Below are positions 44,604 to 53,356 of a stretch of DNA of 64,000 bases, one piece after another. Within the stretch, counting starts at the first letter, position 1; each line of letters starts with the position of its first letter. The notes under the pieces are model-generated. The model saw only the letters and a program-made list of their open reading frames with translations, was not told the DNA's origin and did no database searches. This DNA is from Methylotenera oryzisoli (GTDB taxonomy: Bacteria; Pseudomonadota; Gammaproteobacteria; Burkholderiales; Methylophilaceae), in contig CAMDTL010000007.1 of the NCBI GenBank assembly GCA_945907735.1, positions 1-64,000 of the forward strand, read 5' to 3'. The translations under genes and the position numbers were made by a program.

Positions 44604-46337
44604 TTATTTCTTAGTAACGAGAATGTCTTCCAGCATCAAATACTCCAAATCACAGCCGTAGAACATATTGAGCGCGTCGGTTGGCGAGCAAATCATCGGT
44701 TCACCGCGCCGATTAAGCGACGTGTTCAATACCACGGCGCTGCCACGCAGCTTTTCTAAATGTGCTATCAACTCATAATAACGCGGATTCGTCTCATACG
44801 TCACCACTTGCGCGCGCGCCGTGCCATCCTCGTGCACAACTTCTGGAATACGCGATTTCCACGCGGGGTTCACGTCAAACGTAAACGTCATATAAGGCGC
44901 GGGATGCGCAGTTTGCAAAATATCTTCTGCCACTTTATCGAGCATGCTCGGGCAAAACGGCCGCCAACGCTCGCGATATTTAATTTGCGCGTTAATGCGA
45001 TCGGCCACGCCAGGAAAACTCGGATCACCCAAAATACTGCGACAACCCAGTGAGCGCGGACCAAATTCCATACAGCCTTGAAACCAAGCCAACGGATTCC
45101 CTGCCGCAAGCAATTCAGCGGCTTTTTTTGGTGCCGCTGCAACCCGCTTAAATACTGGTTTGGCGGGGTGCTGTTTACAAGCTTCTGCACATTCCTCAGA
45201 AGTAAAACTTGGGCCTAAATAGGCATGTTCCATTTTGTGGATGGTTTCACCCGCCAAATGTGCCGCGTAAGTCGCCGCGCCCAAACTTGTACCGTTATCG
45301 CCAGACGCTGGCTGCACGAATAATTCTTTCACATGCGGCATGGCGATAATGCGCTGATTCAGCTTCACATTCAGCGCCACGCCACCCGCCATGGCAATCT
45401 TGCCAGTTTCCTTGATAATGTCGCCCAAATAATAGTCAATCATCTGTAGCGCCAAATCTTCCAGCAGCTTTTGCACGCTGGCGGCGTAATGAATGTACGG
45501 GTCGTCAATCTCATCACCGCTGCGCTTGGGGCCTAGCCAATCGATGAGTTTTTGCGTGAAATAAAAGCCCCTAGACTTTCCATCTGAGTCATTTTCTTTA
45601 TAGCGCCGCAAACCGACGACGTTGACGTATTCGGTGTTCACAATCAGCTCGCCATTTTCAAACTTGGCGAGACGCGATAAATCGTACTTGGTCGCATCGC
45701 CATACGGCGCCATGCCCATCACTTTAAATTCGCCGTCCAGCATATCAAAACCCAAAAACTCGGTAATCGCGCCATATAAGCCGCCGAGCGAATCGGGGTC
45801 ATAAAACTCTTTAATTTTATGGATTTTGCCATGTTCGCCATAACCAAAAAACGTGGTGGCGTATTCGCCTTTGCCATCGATGCCGACAATCGCCGTTTTT
45901 TCGCTGAAACCGCTTAAATGATAGGCGCTAGAAGCATGCGCTAAATGGTGTTCTACTGGCACGAATTTAGCCTTACTTAAGCCTAATGCTTGCATAAGTT
46001 TCAATGACTGATCCCGATTGCGTCTAAAACGTCTATTCCCATTAAAAATCGCATCCAAGGCACGGTCTGGCGCATACCAATGGCGTTTGGCATAATGCCA
46101 ACGCGCATTGGTGCTGAGTGGAATTTCCGCATACGGAAACGCCACAATATCGACGTCTTCAGGCTTTATACCTGCCTGTTTCAAGCAAAATTTCGCCGCT
46201 TCATACGGAAATTTATTTTTCGCATGTTTATCACGAATAAAGCGCTCTTCTTCCGCCGCCGCGATAATCTTGCCATCGATTAAAATCGCCGCAGAAGCGT
46301 CATGGCCTAATGCGCCCGCAAGTCCTAATACAATCAT
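44604..46337 (-). CDS. Carbamoyltransferase (NodU/CmcH family), probable LPS-core or glycan carbamoylation
   Basis: MIVLGLAGALGHDASAAILIDGKIIAAAEEERFIRDKHAKNKFP...VPVEHHLAHASSAYH. Confidence 0.9.
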   Translation of the reverse strand: MIVLGLAGALGHDASAAILIDGKIIAAAEEERFIRDKHAKNKFPYEAAKFCLKQAGIKPEDVDIVAFPYAEIPLSTNARWHYAKRHWYAPDRALDAIFNGNRRFRRNRDQSLKLMQALGLSKAKFVPVEHHLAHASSAYHLSGFSEKTAIVGIDGKGEYATTFFGYGEHGKIHKIKEFYDPDSLGGLYGAITEFLGFDMLDGEFKVMGMAPYGDATKYDLSRLAKFENGELIVNTEYVNVVGLRRYKENDSDGKSRGFYFTQKLIDWLGPKRSGDEIDDPYIHYAASVQKLLEDLALQMIDYYLGDIIKETGKIAMAGGVALNVKLNQRIIAMPHVKELFVQPASGDNGTSLGAATYAAHLAGETIHKMEHAYLGPSFTSEECAEACKQHPAKPVFKRVAAAPKKAAELLAAGNPLAWFQGCMEFGPRSLGCRSILGDPSFPGVADRINAQIKYRERWRPFCPSMLDKVAEDILQTAHPAPYMTFTFDVNPAWKSRIPEVVHEDGTARAQVVTYETNPRYYELIAHLEKLRGSAVVLNTSLNRRGEPMICSPTDALNMFYGCDLEYLMLEDILVTKK

Positions 46338-47848
46338 TAAGTCAACTCTTTATTGTTAAAAATGCCCGCTTTTTCAAGTGGCTCGAGGTCTTCGTAAACC
46401 ACTCTAAATGTTTTCACAAACGCATTATACAGCGCATTGTCGTTTTGCCAGTTTTGCATAAAACGGCGCAAGTCGCGCACATGTGTACGCTCGAAAAAGA
46501 AGGCACTTTGATGTTGGCGCATGCTGTCCAAATCAATCAGAACAGGCTGAGAGCCGCTTATTTTAAGGTTGCTAGCCTTCATGTCACCATGCGAAATTTG
46601 TAGCAGATATAATTTATAAAACAGCGTAACAATATTTTTTATCGCTTTCGCACGTTGAGTTTTATCACGTGTTTTTGCAAAAAACTGTGCGGCATCGAGC
46701 GCATCGACATACTCTGCTAAAAAGTAAGCTTTAGATTTAAATAAACAAAAGTTTCTCTGCTCAATCAAGGCGATAGGTTTTGCCGTCACAACACCCAACA
46801 ACTTTAGCCGATGTGCATTTGCCCACGAAACTGCTGCGCGGGTTTGCCTAAACGCACGGCTGATACCATGCCAAAAGCTTTTAATGTTATAGCGCTTAAT
46901 GACGATTTTTTTACCGTCAATTTCAGATAGTGCCACCGTGCAAGTGTTGCCATTTTTAAGCAGATTCTGCGCGGTAAGTAATGTATCCAAATTGCCAGAA
47001 AAGTTGATATTTTCATATTCCCTACAAACCAATATCCATAAGCATCCCAAAGTATACTTTTTTACGTCTGTACATGACCTAAATACTTTTTTCTCTGCGT
47101 AATTACTGGCTACTTTTTGGCGATACGCATTCGTTAGAGCTTTAATTGATCCCACATCTGGCAACGCTACCCAGCCTCTTTTTTCTGCGTAAACATTCAG
47201 CAAATCAGCCAACCAAATCTCTACTTCCAACACATCAAATTTTGACAATAAAACACACAAATTTTGCAGCGCTTGCTGCTGGCTTAAGCGCGTAAATTTG
47301 CGAATACCATCACCATCTAGCGTATAAATCTTATTGTCAGAAACAAGAAAGTTTTTAAGGTACAAATCAGTCTGTAACAAACCTGCGTTATGGTGCTTGG
47401 CGAGTTCATTCACTAAATTTTTAGCTAAGGCAAAACGCGTCTTAAAGACTAAATTCTGCCAAGCTTGCTCGGCATTTAGTGCATTTACAATGGCTTCGAA
47501 CACAAGAATATAAGCATTATCTTGTGTTCGACCCTGAAACAACAACGCTGGCGAGGCGATTTTTGCTACGACTAAATCAGTTACGCCAGCCAAATCACGG
47601 GCGAAATATTGCGCCGCGCGTACGCCGATAAATAATTTTGCATAGACTGTTTTTTGCTGCCAAACGCCCTTGCAAACCAATCGCTTATTGGAGATGACGC
47701 GCACAACCGCATCACATAGCAGATTTGAGCCATCACTCAAACTCAAGCTCAACACCAATTTTCCAGGTGCTGTAATTTCATGTAAGTCAGTCTGTTGCAA
47801 GACGCGGAAATCTTTCCAGTAAATCGATGACAGATACAACCACTTCAT
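46337..47848 (-). CDS. Tandem double Kdo/WaaP-type LPS kinase-like protein
   Basis: Two kinase-like catalytic segments: KHHNAGLLQTDLYLKNFLVSDNKIYTLDGDG and QISHGDMKASNLKISGSQPVLIDLDSM. Confidence 0.75.
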   Translation of the reverse strand: MKWLYLSSIYWKDFRVLQQTDLHEITAPGKLVLSLSLSDGSNLLCDAVVRVISNKRLVCKGVWQQKTVYAKLFIGVRAAQYFARDLAGVTDLVVAKIASPALLFQGRTQDNAYILVFEAIVNALNAEQAWQNLVFKTRFALAKNLVNELAKHHNAGLLQTDLYLKNFLVSDNKIYTLDGDGIRKFTRLSQQQALQNLCVLLSKFDVLEVEIWLADLLNVYAEKRGWVALPDVGSIKALTNAYRQKVASNYAEKKVFRSCTDVKKYTLGCLWILVCREYENINFSGNLDTLLTAQNLLKNGNTCTVALSEIDGKKIVIKRYNIKSFWHGISRAFRQTRAAVSWANAHRLKLLGVVTAKPIALIEQRNFCLFKSKAYFLAEYVDALDAAQFFAKTRDKTQRAKAIKNIVTLFYKLYLLQISHGDMKASNLKISGSQPVLIDLDSMRQHQSAFFFERTHVRDLRRFMQNWQNDNALYNAFVKTFRVVYEDLEPLEKAGIFNNKELT

Positions 47849-49523
47849 CCACTGAAATATCGGTCATCTCATCTCTTTTAATGACTTTGTGTTGTGGCTT
47901 AATGGGGAAAGGTCCAGTTGCAATGGGGCGGGTAGGGCCATAAAGCCCGACAATGGGCACACTTGACGCAGCCGCAATATGAAAAACGCCACAATCATGC
48001 GCGATAAACAGATCCCATCGTTTCATTAAAGCGCTTAAATCTGCAACCGTGGTTTTACCTACCAAATTGATAGTATTAGGGACATTTTTCTCGAATTTTT
48101 TCGCCAGAAAAGCTTCATTATTGGTGCCAGTAATTGCAATTCTCAGATCAGGAATATGCGTCTGCAAAGCCTTGCCCAGCGCGATGTAGGCGTCGATAGA
48201 CCACAACTTTTTATCGTCCGCCCGGCGCGAATAAAAAAACTTCCAGCCGTGCAATAAAGTCGTGCCGCAGCCCAAGTGAATATTGATTAAAACCGCATCT
48301 TTAGCCAGTGCATATTTTGCTAGCAGATTCTCAGCCGTTTGCGGCGTTTCTATCACATAATGTCGATCCGCATCAGTCACTTCCACTTTAAGCCACGCTG
48401 CGATAAACCGCAGCAAATGTTCAGCGTGATGAATAGACTCTGTTGAAGGCGGTACCAAGGTGAACGCGGTTTTGATGTTGTCTAACTTTTTAAGTGCATT
48501 TTTGTTGAGCACAAAAACGTTTGTGTAATTTTTTGCCAAGTCATCAAAAACACGGCTTTTACGGATGATATAGGCCTGCCCAATATCAGGATTGTTCTCA
48601 AACACTTCAGCGCTCAATTTATTTAGTGCAACCACGTCAATCTTGGCTTGCGGCAGATGTTTGCGTAATAGTCGAATTGCCGGCGTGCAAAATACATTAT
48701 TGCCTGTGCTGCTGGAGGTTAAAATTAAAATTTTTTCTGTATTAGCAATCATCATATTGTGCGTATTTTTCTGTGATTTTTTAACAATATAACGACATAC
48801 CCATTTATGCCAAAGCGTTAAGCGCTCAATTTCGAAATATTGTTTAAAAAAATGTAATCGTTGCGTGCGGGTAAAGTTGTGGGTTCGATAATTAAGTGTA
48901 ATTAAATCAGAAAATTTGAGACATGGAATAAAAGGCGTGACACGTGACTTTTCAAAATCAATCAACGAGACTTCTAATTTTTTGTTAATAAATAAATGCT
49001 TATCGTAAAGTGAGCGGTGTTGTACCTGCGCTTGATGCATGTTACGCACCGCACTTGCCAGCTGACTAATCAACTTACGCTTTGGCGTGTTGCCCTGCAT
49101 TTTATCGAGCGAAACAAATCCTTCCAGCGCTTCCAGCAACAAAATGGTCTGTGCATTTTTACTTGCAAAGTACACTATATTTGGCGTACTCACATTGTGT
49201 TGCTTCAAGTGTTGAATAATTTCAAATTCGCGCAAAAATGTTGGTTCGCCTACAGCGGGATGTCGCCAACTACGGCGCATGTGGGCCTGTTGACGCTTAA
49301 GATAAAAGCCCTGTTTTTTGCCAAACTCATCCGTTAACTCAATAAAATTAACGCCACTCCAGCCGCCCCGCTCACGATTTGGCGGCTCGAACCAGTCGCC
49401 CGCATAACCCCAAAGTTGCTCAAAGCTCGCAAGCTTATGCTGTGTGAGTAAAGCCAAATGTTGTGGAGAAATACTGCTTTGCAAAAAATTTCCTTTAAAC
49501 TGTCGAAGTATGCTCAAACTCAT
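47787..49523 (-). CDS. Fusion: InaA/WapP-type LPS kinase domain + GT9 heptosyltransferase domain
   Basis: N-terminal YLKRQQAHMRRSWRHP...VQHRSLYDKHLFINKKLEVSLIDFEKSR; C-terminal KILILTSSSTGNNVFCTPAIRLLRKHLPQAKIDVVALNKLSAEVFENNPDIG...IAHDCGVFHIAAASSVPIVGLYGPTRP. Confidence 0.85.
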   Translation of the reverse strand: MSLSILRQFKGNFLQSSISPQHLALLTQHKLASFEQLWGYAGDWFEPPNRERGGWSGVNFIELTDEFGKKQGFYLKRQQAHMRRSWRHPAVGEPTFLREFEIIQHLKQHNVSTPNIVYFASKNAQTILLLEALEGFVSLDKMQGNTPKRKLISQLASAVRNMHQAQVQHRSLYDKHLFINKKLEVSLIDFEKSRVTPFIPCLKFSDLITLNYRTHNFTRTQRLHFFKQYFEIERLTLWHKWVCRYIVKKSQKNTHNMMIANTEKILILTSSSTGNNVFCTPAIRLLRKHLPQAKIDVVALNKLSAEVFENNPDIGQAYIIRKSRVFDDLAKNYTNVFVLNKNALKKLDNIKTAFTLVPPSTESIHHAEHLLRFIAAWLKVEVTDADRHYVIETPQTAENLLAKYALAKDAVLINIHLGCGTTLLHGWKFFYSRRADDKKLWSIDAYIALGKALQTHIPDLRIAITGTNNEAFLAKKFEKNVPNTINLVGKTTVADLSALMKRWDLFIAHDCGVFHIAAASSVPIVGLYGPTRPIATGPFPIKPQHKVIKRDEMTDISVDEVVVSVIDLLERFPRLATD

Positions 49524-50361
49524 TTTTAAATTTTTCGCAATTTTATCACTTCCCACCCTGCATAAATTAGGTTCAGCGTTGGGCTGGGCGATTTATTTCT
49601 GCTCACAAAAATCTGCAAAAATAATTAAATATAATATAAAAAACAGTAAGTTAGCCATAGATGATGCGCATTTAAAGCAAATTCTAAATAAAAATATCGC
49701 CGAAACTGGCAAAAGTATTTTAGAAACTTTTGCCATATGGCAAAAAAAAGAACCCGAATTACTAACCTCAATTAAGCAAGTACACAACTGGGATGTCGTC
49801 GAAGACGCGCTAAAACAAGGCAGTGGCATCATTTTTCTCACGCCACATTTGGGTTGTTTTGAAATCACTTCGATCTACTATGGCAGCAAAAATCCCATCA
49901 CGGTGCTCTACAGGCCGCCTAAAATAAGGGCGCTGGAGCATTACATTTTAATTGGCCGCGCGCGCACTGGCGTAACGCTGGCAGAAGCCAATACCAACGG
50001 CGTGCGCAAGCTGATGCAAGCACTCAAAAAAGGCGAAGCCATTGGTATTTTGCCCGATCAAATCCCCTCGGCTGGTGAAGGTGAATGGGCTGATTTTTTT
50101 GGGCTTCCTGCCTACACTATGACCTTAGCCAGCAAACTGGCCGAAAAAACTGGTGCAACCGTGATTATGGGTTATGGTGAACGGCTTGCAAATGGTGCAG
50201 GTTATGACCTGCATTTAACGCAGCTTGATAATGGCGCAATTGCCACGCCAGCCCTATTAAATAAAGCAATTGAGGCACAAATTGCACAAAAACCAGAACA
50301 GTATTTATGGCAATATAACCGCTACAAAGCAAGGCGCCATGCAGAAATTAAACGCCCCTAA
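49510..50361 (+). CDS. Lipid A biosynthesis lauroyl/myristoyl acyltransferase (LpxL/HtrB family)
   Basis: GSGIIFLTPHLGCFEITSIYYGSKNPITVLYRPPKIRALEHYI...GILPDQIPSAGEGEWADFFG. Confidence 0.92.
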   Translation: MLKLIFKFFAILSLPTLHKLGSALGWAIYFCSQKSAKIIKYNIKNSKLAIDDAHLKQILNKNIAETGKSILETFAIWQKKEPELLTSIKQVHNWDVVEDALKQGSGIIFLTPHLGCFEITSIYYGSKNPITVLYRPPKIRALEHYILIGRARTGVTLAEANTNGVRKLMQALKKGEAIGILPDQIPSAGEGEWADFFGLPAYTMTLASKLAEKTGATVIMGYGERLANGAGYDLHLTQLDNGAIATPALLNKAIEAQIAQKPEQYLWQYNRYKARRHAEIKRP

Positions 50362-50364
50362 ACA

Positions 50365-52365
50365 CTAATTAATTAGATCCACAGCTTCTTTTTCGGCCCT
50401 CACCCGCCTCTGGAACTTATCGCTATTAAACTTAGTATATAACTTGTTAGCACGCTTGTATGCTTGTTGCCAGAATTTTGCATCTTGCGGAAAATAGTGA
50501 GTTTTAAACACCTCCCAGTCCTGCGCGGTAAAACCGTAATTCATACACGAGAACATCAAACCCGCAATATCTTTACGTACTGCACTGCCATGAACGGGTT
50601 GGTGATGTAGCACGCGATGCAAATCTAATAAATAGAATTCAGTATCAGCTGTCACGATAACATCGCGTTGTAATGCAATATGACAAAGGTAAAAATCGCG
50701 GTGGCTTAAGCATGCGCCATGAAAACGTTTAGCTAGCTTAGCAACCGCAATCAACATAGCCTGACGCTGTGCTTGACTAGGCGGATGCGTCACCCATGTT
50801 TTACAAATGTCCTCTAATGAAACAATGTCACCTAAATCTTCGGTCAGTAAAAATGAATGCTGAGTAGCGGCACATCGTCCTTTTACACCATAAGCGGCAA
50901 TGGGTGTCGTGCGAATACCTAACGCAGTCAGTGTTTGTATCGCATACACTTCTGTCATCGCGCTAATCACAGGACGCTTTGCACTTAAATAGTTTTTAAT
51001 GATCTCTTTCCAGCCTACACCACCATGCTGTTTAACAAAATAAGAGCGGTCTTTAAGACCCACACGCATGGTTTTACGGTTTGCAGCAGCGCGTACAGCA
51101 AACCCACTTAGCGCCATAAAATCGTCAAAAGACATGCCCTTTAATTGCGTGTCGTGCTCAGGTGCAATCCATAGCAAAAGGCTTTCACTGGTTGCATCAG
51201 GAGTTACTGTGAGTGGTTGTGTGTGTTTCATTGTTTCTACGATATTAGTCAACATATGTGCCTCAGCATAACCCAAGTTACCCTGCATGAGTTGTTGTGC
51301 ATAACGCCGCCCTGCCTCTTGGTAGGCATGACAATCACCTTGCAATAAATTAAGTAACGCCACATTAAGGTCGTCTTGTGAGAATGGCGACTTTAGGACA
51401 ACACCAGCCTGCGCTTGTTCAATATGCGATGCATAACCACATTGATCGGTAGTGATCACTGGCAAACCACAAGCCATTGCTTCTAACAGCACGTGTCCAG
51501 CCAGTTCACGTCTCGCTGGGTGTATCAGCACATCACTTGCCTGCATGAGTTGAGGAATATCATCACGCCCATCCAACACTTTAACTTGTGCATCTAAACC
51601 TAACTCAGCAATCTGCTTATTCAAATGCTGCGCTGAGTCTTGTCCAATAATTAGTAATTTCACCTGCTGACGTAGCGCATCAGGCAAGGCATATACTGCT
51701 AGCACCGCACGGTCGGCGCCTTTAGTTTTAAAACCAGATCCAACTAATAATAGAACTTGGTCTTCAACGTTAAAACCAAAGTTTGCGCGCATTTCTAACC
51801 GCAACGCTTGACGCTTATCAACATCCACATCACTAGACATACCAAAGCGCTGTTGCGATAAAAATGGTGGTATTAAGTGAAAGCGTGAGTCTGGAGTATG
51901 GTACCAGCGCTGGAATAAAGATTGCGCGACTTTTGTTAGCGTTAAAATATGACATTGACCATTCATATTAAAAATAGCATCTTCTACCCGTTGAAACCAC
52001 TTAAACCTAGGGGTATAGCGATACCACCAAGGTCTCTCTTCATGAGCTTTGGCGACAAAGCAAGAATCGGCCGCAAAATACACATCTAATCCAGCCATCC
52101 GATTGAAGCCTACAATCAAATCCATATGACTAGCGTTTATTTCTTGCTGAATATTTTGAATCAAATTTTCATGCTTCTGATGATTCAGCCAACCCATGCT
52201 GTCACATATCACGACTTTTAAATTGTCAGGTTTTAACCCTTGCCATTGCCCAGTAAAAATGGTCACTTCGTGACCTAGTGCAAGGCAATCTTGTGCGATG
52301 CGTAACATGTCGCGCTGCACACCACCATAGGGAAAGTATTTAAATATAGTAAAGGCAAACTTCAT
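50365..52365 (-). CDS. Fusion: WaaG-type GT4 glycosyltransferase + WaaP LPS core heptose kinase
   Basis: MKFAFTIFKYFPYGGVQRDMLRIAQDCLALGHEVTIFTGQWQG (WaaG) ... RSYFVKQHGGVGWKEIIKNYLSAKRPVISAMTEVYAIQTLTALGI...LSHRDFYLCHIAL...FYLLDLHRV (WaaP); start set to 52365. Confidence 0.92.
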   Translation of the reverse strand: MKFAFTIFKYFPYGGVQRDMLRIAQDCLALGHEVTIFTGQWQGLKPDNLKVVICDSMGWLNHQKHENLIQNIQQEINASHMDLIVGFNRMAGLDVYFAADSCFVAKAHEERPWWYRYTPRFKWFQRVEDAIFNMNGQCHILTLTKVAQSLFQRWYHTPDSRFHLIPPFLSQQRFGMSSDVDVDKRQALRLEMRANFGFNVEDQVLLLVGSGFKTKGADRAVLAVYALPDALRQQVKLLIIGQDSAQHLNKQIAELGLDAQVKVLDGRDDIPQLMQASDVLIHPARRELAGHVLLEAMACGLPVITTDQCGYASHIEQAQAGVVLKSPFSQDDLNVALLNLLQGDCHAYQEAGRRYAQQLMQGNLGYAEAHMLTNIVETMKHTQPLTVTPDATSESLLLWIAPEHDTQLKGMSFDDFMALSGFAVRAAANRKTMRVGLKDRSYFVKQHGGVGWKEIIKNYLSAKRPVISAMTEVYAIQTLTALGIRTTPIAAYGVKGRCAATQHSFLLTEDLGDIVSLEDICKTWVTHPPSQAQRQAMLIAVAKLAKRFHGACLSHRDFYLCHIALQRDVIVTADTEFYLLDLHRVLHHQPVHGSAVRKDIAGLMFSCMNYGFTAQDWEVFKTHYFPQDAKFWQQAYKRANKLYTKFNSDKFQRRVRAEKEAVDLIN

Positions 52366-52393
52366 TTTCAGAATTGTATGCGAAAATAATGCC

Positions 52394-53356
52394 ATGAAAC
52401 GAATCTTGCTGGTTAAAACCTCTTCACTAGGCGACGTCATTCACAACTTACCCGTTGTGAATGACATCTTGCAACATTATCCTGAGGCAATCATTGATTG
52501 GGTGGTAGATGAAAGTTTTGCCGACATTCCGCGCCTTCATCCACAAGTCAATCAGATTATCACAGTTGCGCTACGCCGCTGGCGCAAGCAGTTATTCAGG
52601 CGCAAAACTTGGTGTGAAATCTGCCATGTAATTAGAAGACTCTCGACGAATCAGTACGATGCCGTAATCGATACGCAAGGTCTAATTAAAAGTGGAATCA
52701 TTACAAGCCTAACCAAGGGAATCACACATGGCTACGATAGACAATCCATACGTGAACCACTGGCCAGTTGGTGCTATCAGCAAAAACATCACATTAGTTA
52801 TCAGCAACATGCCGTCAGCCGAAACCGCTCACTAGCCGCCTTGAGCCTAAATTACGCCATACCCAATCACGCACCAGACTATGGCATTAAAGCTTCAGCC
52901 TGCACAGACATAGTCATCAATCAGCCCTATATTATTGGCTTACACGGCACTAGTCGCGCAAGCAAATTGTGGTCAACAGATAACTGGGTGGCGTTAGGTA
53001 AAACATTGACTCAGAAAAATTTGAATTTGGTGTTACCTTGGGCAAACGATGCGGAATTTAAACGTGCCAACGAAATCGCAAACCAGCTACAAAATGCCAC
53101 CGTGTTGCCCAAATTAAATATTGCAGAATTAGCCAGCGTAATCGCCAACGCACAAGCGGCAATTGGTGTGGATACTGGTTTATCGCATTTGGCGGTTGCC
53201 TTAAGTAAGCCCACCATTGCAATTTATACGGACACCGACCCTGCACTTACGGGCGTGATGGCGGGCAATATTGTGCCAGCCGTTAATCTTGGCGGGAAAG
53301 GCCAACTTCCTTCAGTTGACGCGGCTTTTCAACATGCATTAATTAATATGATTTAA
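52394..53356 (+). CDS. waaC: Lipopolysaccharide heptosyltransferase I
   Basis: MKRILLVKTSSLGDVIHNLPVVNDILQHYPEAIIDWVVDESFADIPRLHPQVNQII. Confidence 0.95.
   Translation: MKRILLVKTSSLGDVIHNLPVVNDILQHYPEAIIDWVVDESFADIPRLHPQVNQIITVALRRWRKQLFRRKTWCEICHVIRRLSTNQYDAVIDTQGLIKSGIITSLTKGITHGYDRQSIREPLASWCYQQKHHISYQQHAVSRNRSLAALSLNYAIPNHAPDYGIKASACTDIVINQPYIIGLHGTSRASKLWSTDNWVALGKTLTQKNLNLVLPWANDAEFKRANEIANQLQNATVLPKLNIAELASVIANAQAAIGVDTGLSHLAVALSKPTIAIYTDTDPALTGVMAGNIVPAVNLGGKGQLPSVDAAFQHALINMI

Follow-up and report, generated by a model that had tools for sequence, protein, structure and literature searches.

A single-lineage gene fusion links a WapQ/InaA-type kinase-like domain to a GT9 glycosyltransferase in the LPS-core cluster of one Methylotenera genome

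The Pseudomonas LPS-core cluster has the gene order waaF-waaC-wapG-waaP-wapP-wapQ-PA5006-wapO (PMC8005017). Growth of P. aeruginosa requires residues K51, H161, D163, Y165, H168 and D188 of the heptose kinase WaaP, and WaaP carrying D163A is non-functional and gives no growth (PMC6147952). For the heptosyltransferases, Asp13 is the proposed base and, according to a review, is found in all of them; in WaaC, the substitutions D13A, D261A and K192A reduced activity 4688-fold, 2027-fold and 926-fold, respectively (PMC5713226). WapQ/InaA is a widely named, little-studied family. Deletion of wapQ altered the colony surface of P. syringae and was otherwise mild, and P. aeruginosa, too, tolerates deletion of the gene (PMC8982409), in keeping with WapQ being accessory.

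The window analyzed here is the whole stretch of 64,000 nucleotides from Methylotenera oryzisoli (contig CAMDTL010000007.1, positions 1 to 64,000). An earlier note on this DNA had described a single open reading frame (ORF) joining an "InaA/WapP-like kinase" to a GT9 heptosyltransferase. The features of the locus are as follows.

44604..46337, minus strand: carbamoyltransferase, WapO-like, 70-71% identical to its homologue in pseudomonad-type clusters
46337..47800, minus strand: double-kinase gene, PA5006-like; its TTG start at 47800 overlaps the end of the GT9 half, and it is the conserved next gene in relatives
47787..49478, minus strand: probable extent of the WapQ/InaA-type kinase and GT9 fusion gene (TTG start at 49478, stop TGA at 47787-47789)
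47790..48755, minus strand: C-terminal GT9 domain, Methylophilaceae subfamily (TGNN ... HGWKF ... DCGVFH)
48753..48755, minus strand: ATG equivalent to the GT9 gene start in relatives by nucleotide alignment, a possible internal start
48759..48761, minus strand: CAC codon at the junction, aligned with the in-frame TAA that ends the kinase gene of congener G014 (nucleotide alignment and frame check)
48762..49478, minus strand: N-terminal kinase domain, WapQ/InaA-type (Pfam, alignment, motif table and predicted fold)
49510..50361, plus strand: LpxL/HtrB-like acyltransferase, oriented away from the fusion gene and probably starting at an ATG (at its longest, the ORF begins at 49444)
50365..52440, minus strand: GT4 (WaaG/WapG-like) and WaaP heptose kinase fusion; its kinase half scores above the cut-off of the RfaP equivalog and retains the HRD motif
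52394..53356, plus strand: WaaC heptosyltransferase I, an ordinary GT9 protein with a GD motif

Read from right to left, the order in the window is waaC (plus strand), GT4+waaP, the LpxL-like gene (plus strand), kinase-GT9, double kinase, carbamoyltransferase and edd. In the same class, the genomes G372 and G624, which belong to one family, carry waaF-waaC-GT4-waaP-kinase-kinase-double kinase-carbamoyltransferase, an order that matches the published Pseudomonas cluster. In both gene order and profile scores, the window cluster matches the Pseudomonas segment waaC-wapG-waaP-wapP-wapQ-PA5006-wapO. The LPS-core context proposed for the fusion is borne out.

The kinase-GT9 ORF runs on the minus strand from 49556 to 47787 and comprises 589 codons from GTG 49556, with an ATG also at 49523. 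Translation is predicted most likely to begin at TTG 49478, giving a product of ~563 amino acids; AAAGGA lies just 5' of this codon, and the congeners G007 and G008 share the TTG with near-identical upstream sequence. Residue numbers refer to the 589-codon ORF unless stated from the TTG. A frame check of the window sequence found neither a stop nor a frameshift between the halves, and each half has its own Pfam match, so the reading of one uninterrupted frame holds. The kinase half scored 112.4 bits against Kdo/WaaP (PF06293; cut-off, 21.3; E 2.5e-32; residues 47-240) and the GT9 half 71.3 bits against Glyco_transf_9 (PF01075; cut-off, 22; E 1e-19; residues 448-562), both in excess of the curated cut-offs.

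Assignment within these families was narrower than the earlier note had suggested. Against the NCBIfam InaA equivalog PRK09902 the kinase half reached 67.4 bits, under the cut-off of 235; by its sequence it belongs to the InaA superfamily and is not E. coli InaA itself. The kinase profile scored 215-219 bits on the gene in the WapQ position of two pseudomonad-type clusters versus 50-58 bits on the gene in the WapP position, and on this ground the kinase half is classed as WapQ/InaA-type and not as WapP. The InaA likeness thus stood, while the WapP likeness gave way to WapQ. The GT9 half fell under all heptosyltransferase equivalog cut-offs (66 bits against 135 for II, 63 against 185 for I and 51 against 170 for III). 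It could be aligned end to end with 14 relatives and was modeled well, as a complete GT9 protein, with WaaF 1psw (Foldseek E 5e-18) and WaaC 2h1h as the best PDB matches, in agreement with the earlier description of a complete C-terminal domain.

The model of the kinase domain has a protein-kinase fold (pLDDT 93.8), and its best solved relative by sequence profile is WaaP (PDB 6dfl; E 3.9e-19). The kinase half was poor in a joint model of both domains because the alignment contained few full-length rows, some of them built by reading through stops in relatives. The linker at ~235-243 (numbered from the TTG) was disordered and the packing of the domains was of low confidence. Given the disordered linker and the poor kinase half, we claim no interface between the kinase and GT9 domains.

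As the earlier note had implied for described LPS systems, the kinase and GT9 proteins are separate elsewhere: they are encoded by tandem genes in nine Methylophilaceae genomes (G007, G008, G014, G108, G109, G123, G124, G161 and G205), the first three of which are congeners. The pair occupies the corresponding position there and precedes the double-kinase and carbamoyltransferase genes, with the double-kinase gene next to it wherever the contig reaches that far. Since the two genes are adjacent in nine relatives, chance joining of the domains is excluded. In G014, G008 and G007, the GT9 ATG comes just a few bases after the kinase stop. The spacer places the two genes in different frames in G007 and G008; in G014 they share a frame, and nucleotide alignment sets CGA TAA ACC ATG of G014 against ACG CAC AAT ATG of the window. 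The genes are adjacent but convergent in G025, and other genomes carry just one of the two.

A strict-pattern scan placed the GT9 subfamily of the fusion at 12 loci inside Methylophilaceae and found none outside. This subfamily, with its invariant TGNN and HGWKF insertion, stands in tandem with wapQ, alone or convergent, depending on the genome. Between the wapQ-like and double-kinase genes, G153 and G122 have a GT2 gene and a 2-oxoglutarate oxygenase gene, not a GT9 gene, and G102 has nothing. Because its contents differ among Methylophilaceae in this way, the slot looks like a variable, core-decorating position. Replacement of the GT9 gene by GT2 and 2OG-Fe(II) oxygenase genes in other Methylophilaceae is seen at L068:5754-7456 and L069:7767-9454.

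No second kinase-GT9 fusion was found among 187 genomes of the family, in samples of the order (399) and the class (369), or among the matches listed for a phylum sample of 399 searched by Pfam family. The fusion was seen only in the window genome and in no further species. Apparent fused matches in G014 (which contains TAA) and in G108, G109 and G123 (which have stops inside the matches) were rejected, as was a phage origin, for which phage records gave one weak match only, to a Salmonella LPS kinase. The architecture was also unreported in the open-licence papers searched. The suggestion of an undescribed architecture is therefore right in that the genome samples hold no second case, but what is new is a stop loss between neighboring genes in a single lineage and not a widespread family. 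By these results the fusion is genuine: two known neighboring LPS-core genes were joined by stop loss in a single lineage, as a one-off variant of a known cluster.

Both halves of the fusion depart from the residues known to matter in characterized enzymes. By alignment, the kinase half retains the WaaP equivalents K87, E110 (for E78), H180, Y184, H187 and D200; the HRD Asp is replaced by Ser, with S182 (HRSLYDKH) at the position of WaaP D163. This position is Ser, Ala or Cys in all kinase relatives, including pseudomonad-type WapQ and E. coli InaA. Across every WapQ/InaA-type sequence examined (the A2 alignment, E. coli InaA at L034, and loci L113 and L114), the HRD Asp is absent and the other kinase residues are present. 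The GT9 half has N286 of the TGNN motif at the position of Asp13 and keeps the equivalents of Lys192 and Asp261. Asn occupies the Asp13 position in all members of the subfamily (15/15). None of the GT9 invariants was lost in the fusion, and the two conserved positions altered in the kinase half lie outside the active site. For both halves, dN (0.19-0.34) was well below dS (~2 or more, saturated), a pattern indicating purifying selection. A degenerate gene was rejected on the basis of these dN and dS values and the intact GT9 invariants. Because the missing residues are family-wide and both halves are under purifying selection, the domains are atypical as families rather than decayed in the Methylotenera lineage that carries the fusion.

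The best explanation, and in our judgment a probable one, is a lineage-specific stop-loss fusion in a conserved LPS-core cluster that would tether two accessory LPS-core enzymes. The ancestor would have had a WapQ/InaA-type kinase gene and a GT9 gene as neighbors, the end of one and the start of the other a few bases apart, with overlapping genes for the double kinase and carbamoyltransferase further downstream. In a Methylotenera-type lineage, the kinase stop would have given way to a sense codon in the GT9 reading frame, yielding a single polypeptide of ~563 amino acids. At the cytoplasmic membrane, on its inner face, both domains would act on the same lipid A-core intermediate, presumably a shared substrate. 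The GT9 domain would add a core sugar from ADP-heptose or another nucleotide sugar. The WapQ-type domain, working beside WaaP, the double kinase and the carbamoyltransferase, would bind nucleotide and modify, perhaps as a kinase, or position a phosphorylated inner-core heptose. The fusion would thereby link partners that acted together before it arose, possibly with some benefit from the tethering. The fusion is known from one genome, an 88% complete draft, and the retained GT9 start codon could still allow GT9 to be produced as a protein of its own.

Two alternatives question the fusion protein itself. It is very improbable that an artefact of assembly or sequencing removed the stop from the consensus of what are in fact two genes. 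Such an artefact would agree with a fusion seen once, in a draft assembly, with the genes separate in every relative. However, the change from TAA to CAC in frame represents two substitutions relative to G014, which makes a single base error an unlikely cause. In a comparison with the complete congener G007, 442 of whose ORFs map to ~430 kb of the window genome, no convincing broken conserved gene appeared: two apparent opposite-direction splits were low-complexity, apparently antisense shadow ORFs, and just two pairs were fused here, kinase-GT9 and GT4+WaaP, both in the LPS cluster. Fused homologues of the neighboring GT4-WaaP gene, moreover, occur independently in six genomes. A change of the genetic code and a general loss of stops were rejected because only these 2 fusions were present among the mapped ORFs. 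Rather unlikely, too, is a read-through frame with no functional fusion, in which most GT9 synthesis would start at the old ATG 48755, leaving the fused product minor or neutral. Retention of this ATG at its ancestral position is consistent with such a reading, as is an ancestral layout that implies translational coupling. Against it, no clear Shine-Dalgarno sequence was found upstream of the internal ATG, and termination-reinitiation is no longer possible there since the kinase stop is gone.

Other alternatives concern what the protein does. The earlier note had proposed that the fusion couples transfer of a core sugar to its phosphorylation. In a classical bifunctional enzyme of this kind, ADP-heptose transfer by the GT9 half would be followed by phosphorylation of the same heptose by the kinase half. 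The family names, the cluster context and the retained K192-like Lys, D261-like Asp and DFG-like Asp favor this reading, but Ser in place of the HRD Asp, invariant Asn in place of Asp13, the severe effects of D163A in WaaP and D13A in WaaC and the low heptosyltransferase equivalog scores make it unlikely. With HRS in the kinase half and TGNN in the GT9 half, neither phosphorylation nor heptosyl transfer can be assumed, and the enzymatic part of the fusion is uncertain because each domain is without a residue essential in characterized relatives. As stated, the proposal was unsupported, and coupled heptose transfer and phosphorylation by the fusion is no more than possible. Just as possible is that the WapQ domain, with nucleotide bound, serves the GT9 step as a holder or regulator. 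A broader form of this idea seems quite doubtful: the atypical nucleotide-binding WapQ domain (no HRD Asp), permanently tethered to the atypical GT9 domain (no Asp13), would regulate that domain or hold its substrate, and WapQ/InaA "kinases" in general would be pseudokinase partners of core glycosyltransferases.

Gene fusions indicate proteins that work together. The stop-loss fusion links a WapQ-type "kinase," whose activity is doubtful by sequence, to a specific glycosyltransferase and so provides a testable partner for WapQ/InaA. The catalytic Asp missing across the WapQ/InaA family is a broader lead. Core-LPS kinases have also been fused to transferases more than once within one cluster. 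The GT4+WaaP gene at 50365-52440 is one 691-amino-acid ORF, and its counterparts are separate genes in most Methylophilaceae. This fusion is very likely real because it is also a single ORF in six further genomes (G154, G159, G188, G110, G115 and G017), the homologues in the first three being 85-86% identical. Elsewhere, a WapQ-like kinase and a sulfatase/LTA-synthase-type domain share one 959-amino-acid ORF (L117:1222-4101, in G206), and a Kdo transferase (KdtA) and a Kdo kinase-type (KdkA) domain share one of 690 amino acids (L110:1627-3699, in G687). These three fusions likewise tether a PF06293 kinase to an envelope-assembly enzyme, with different partners.

Among known systems, the kinase half resembles WapQ (PA5007) and InaA in its family match, its N-terminal EPN..RGG.S.V motif and its lack of the HRD Asp, and WapQ also in its cluster position ahead of a PA5006-like double kinase and WapO. 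It differs from them in being fused to GT9 and in having HRS where pseudomonad-type WapQ and E. coli InaA have HGC. With the GT9 heptosyltransferases (WaaC, WaaF, WaaQ and Veillonella 3tov), the other half shares the GT9 domain, the GT-B fold and the K192, D261 and His equivalents; unlike them, it has an invariant Asn (TGNN) for Asp13, an HGWKF insertion of ~14 residues and scores far under the equivalog cut-offs. The closest counterpart is the tandem pair of wapQ-like and GT9 genes of Methylotenera, Methylophilus and Pseudomethylobacillus, which has the same proteins, order and downstream genes, but as separate and not fused genes.
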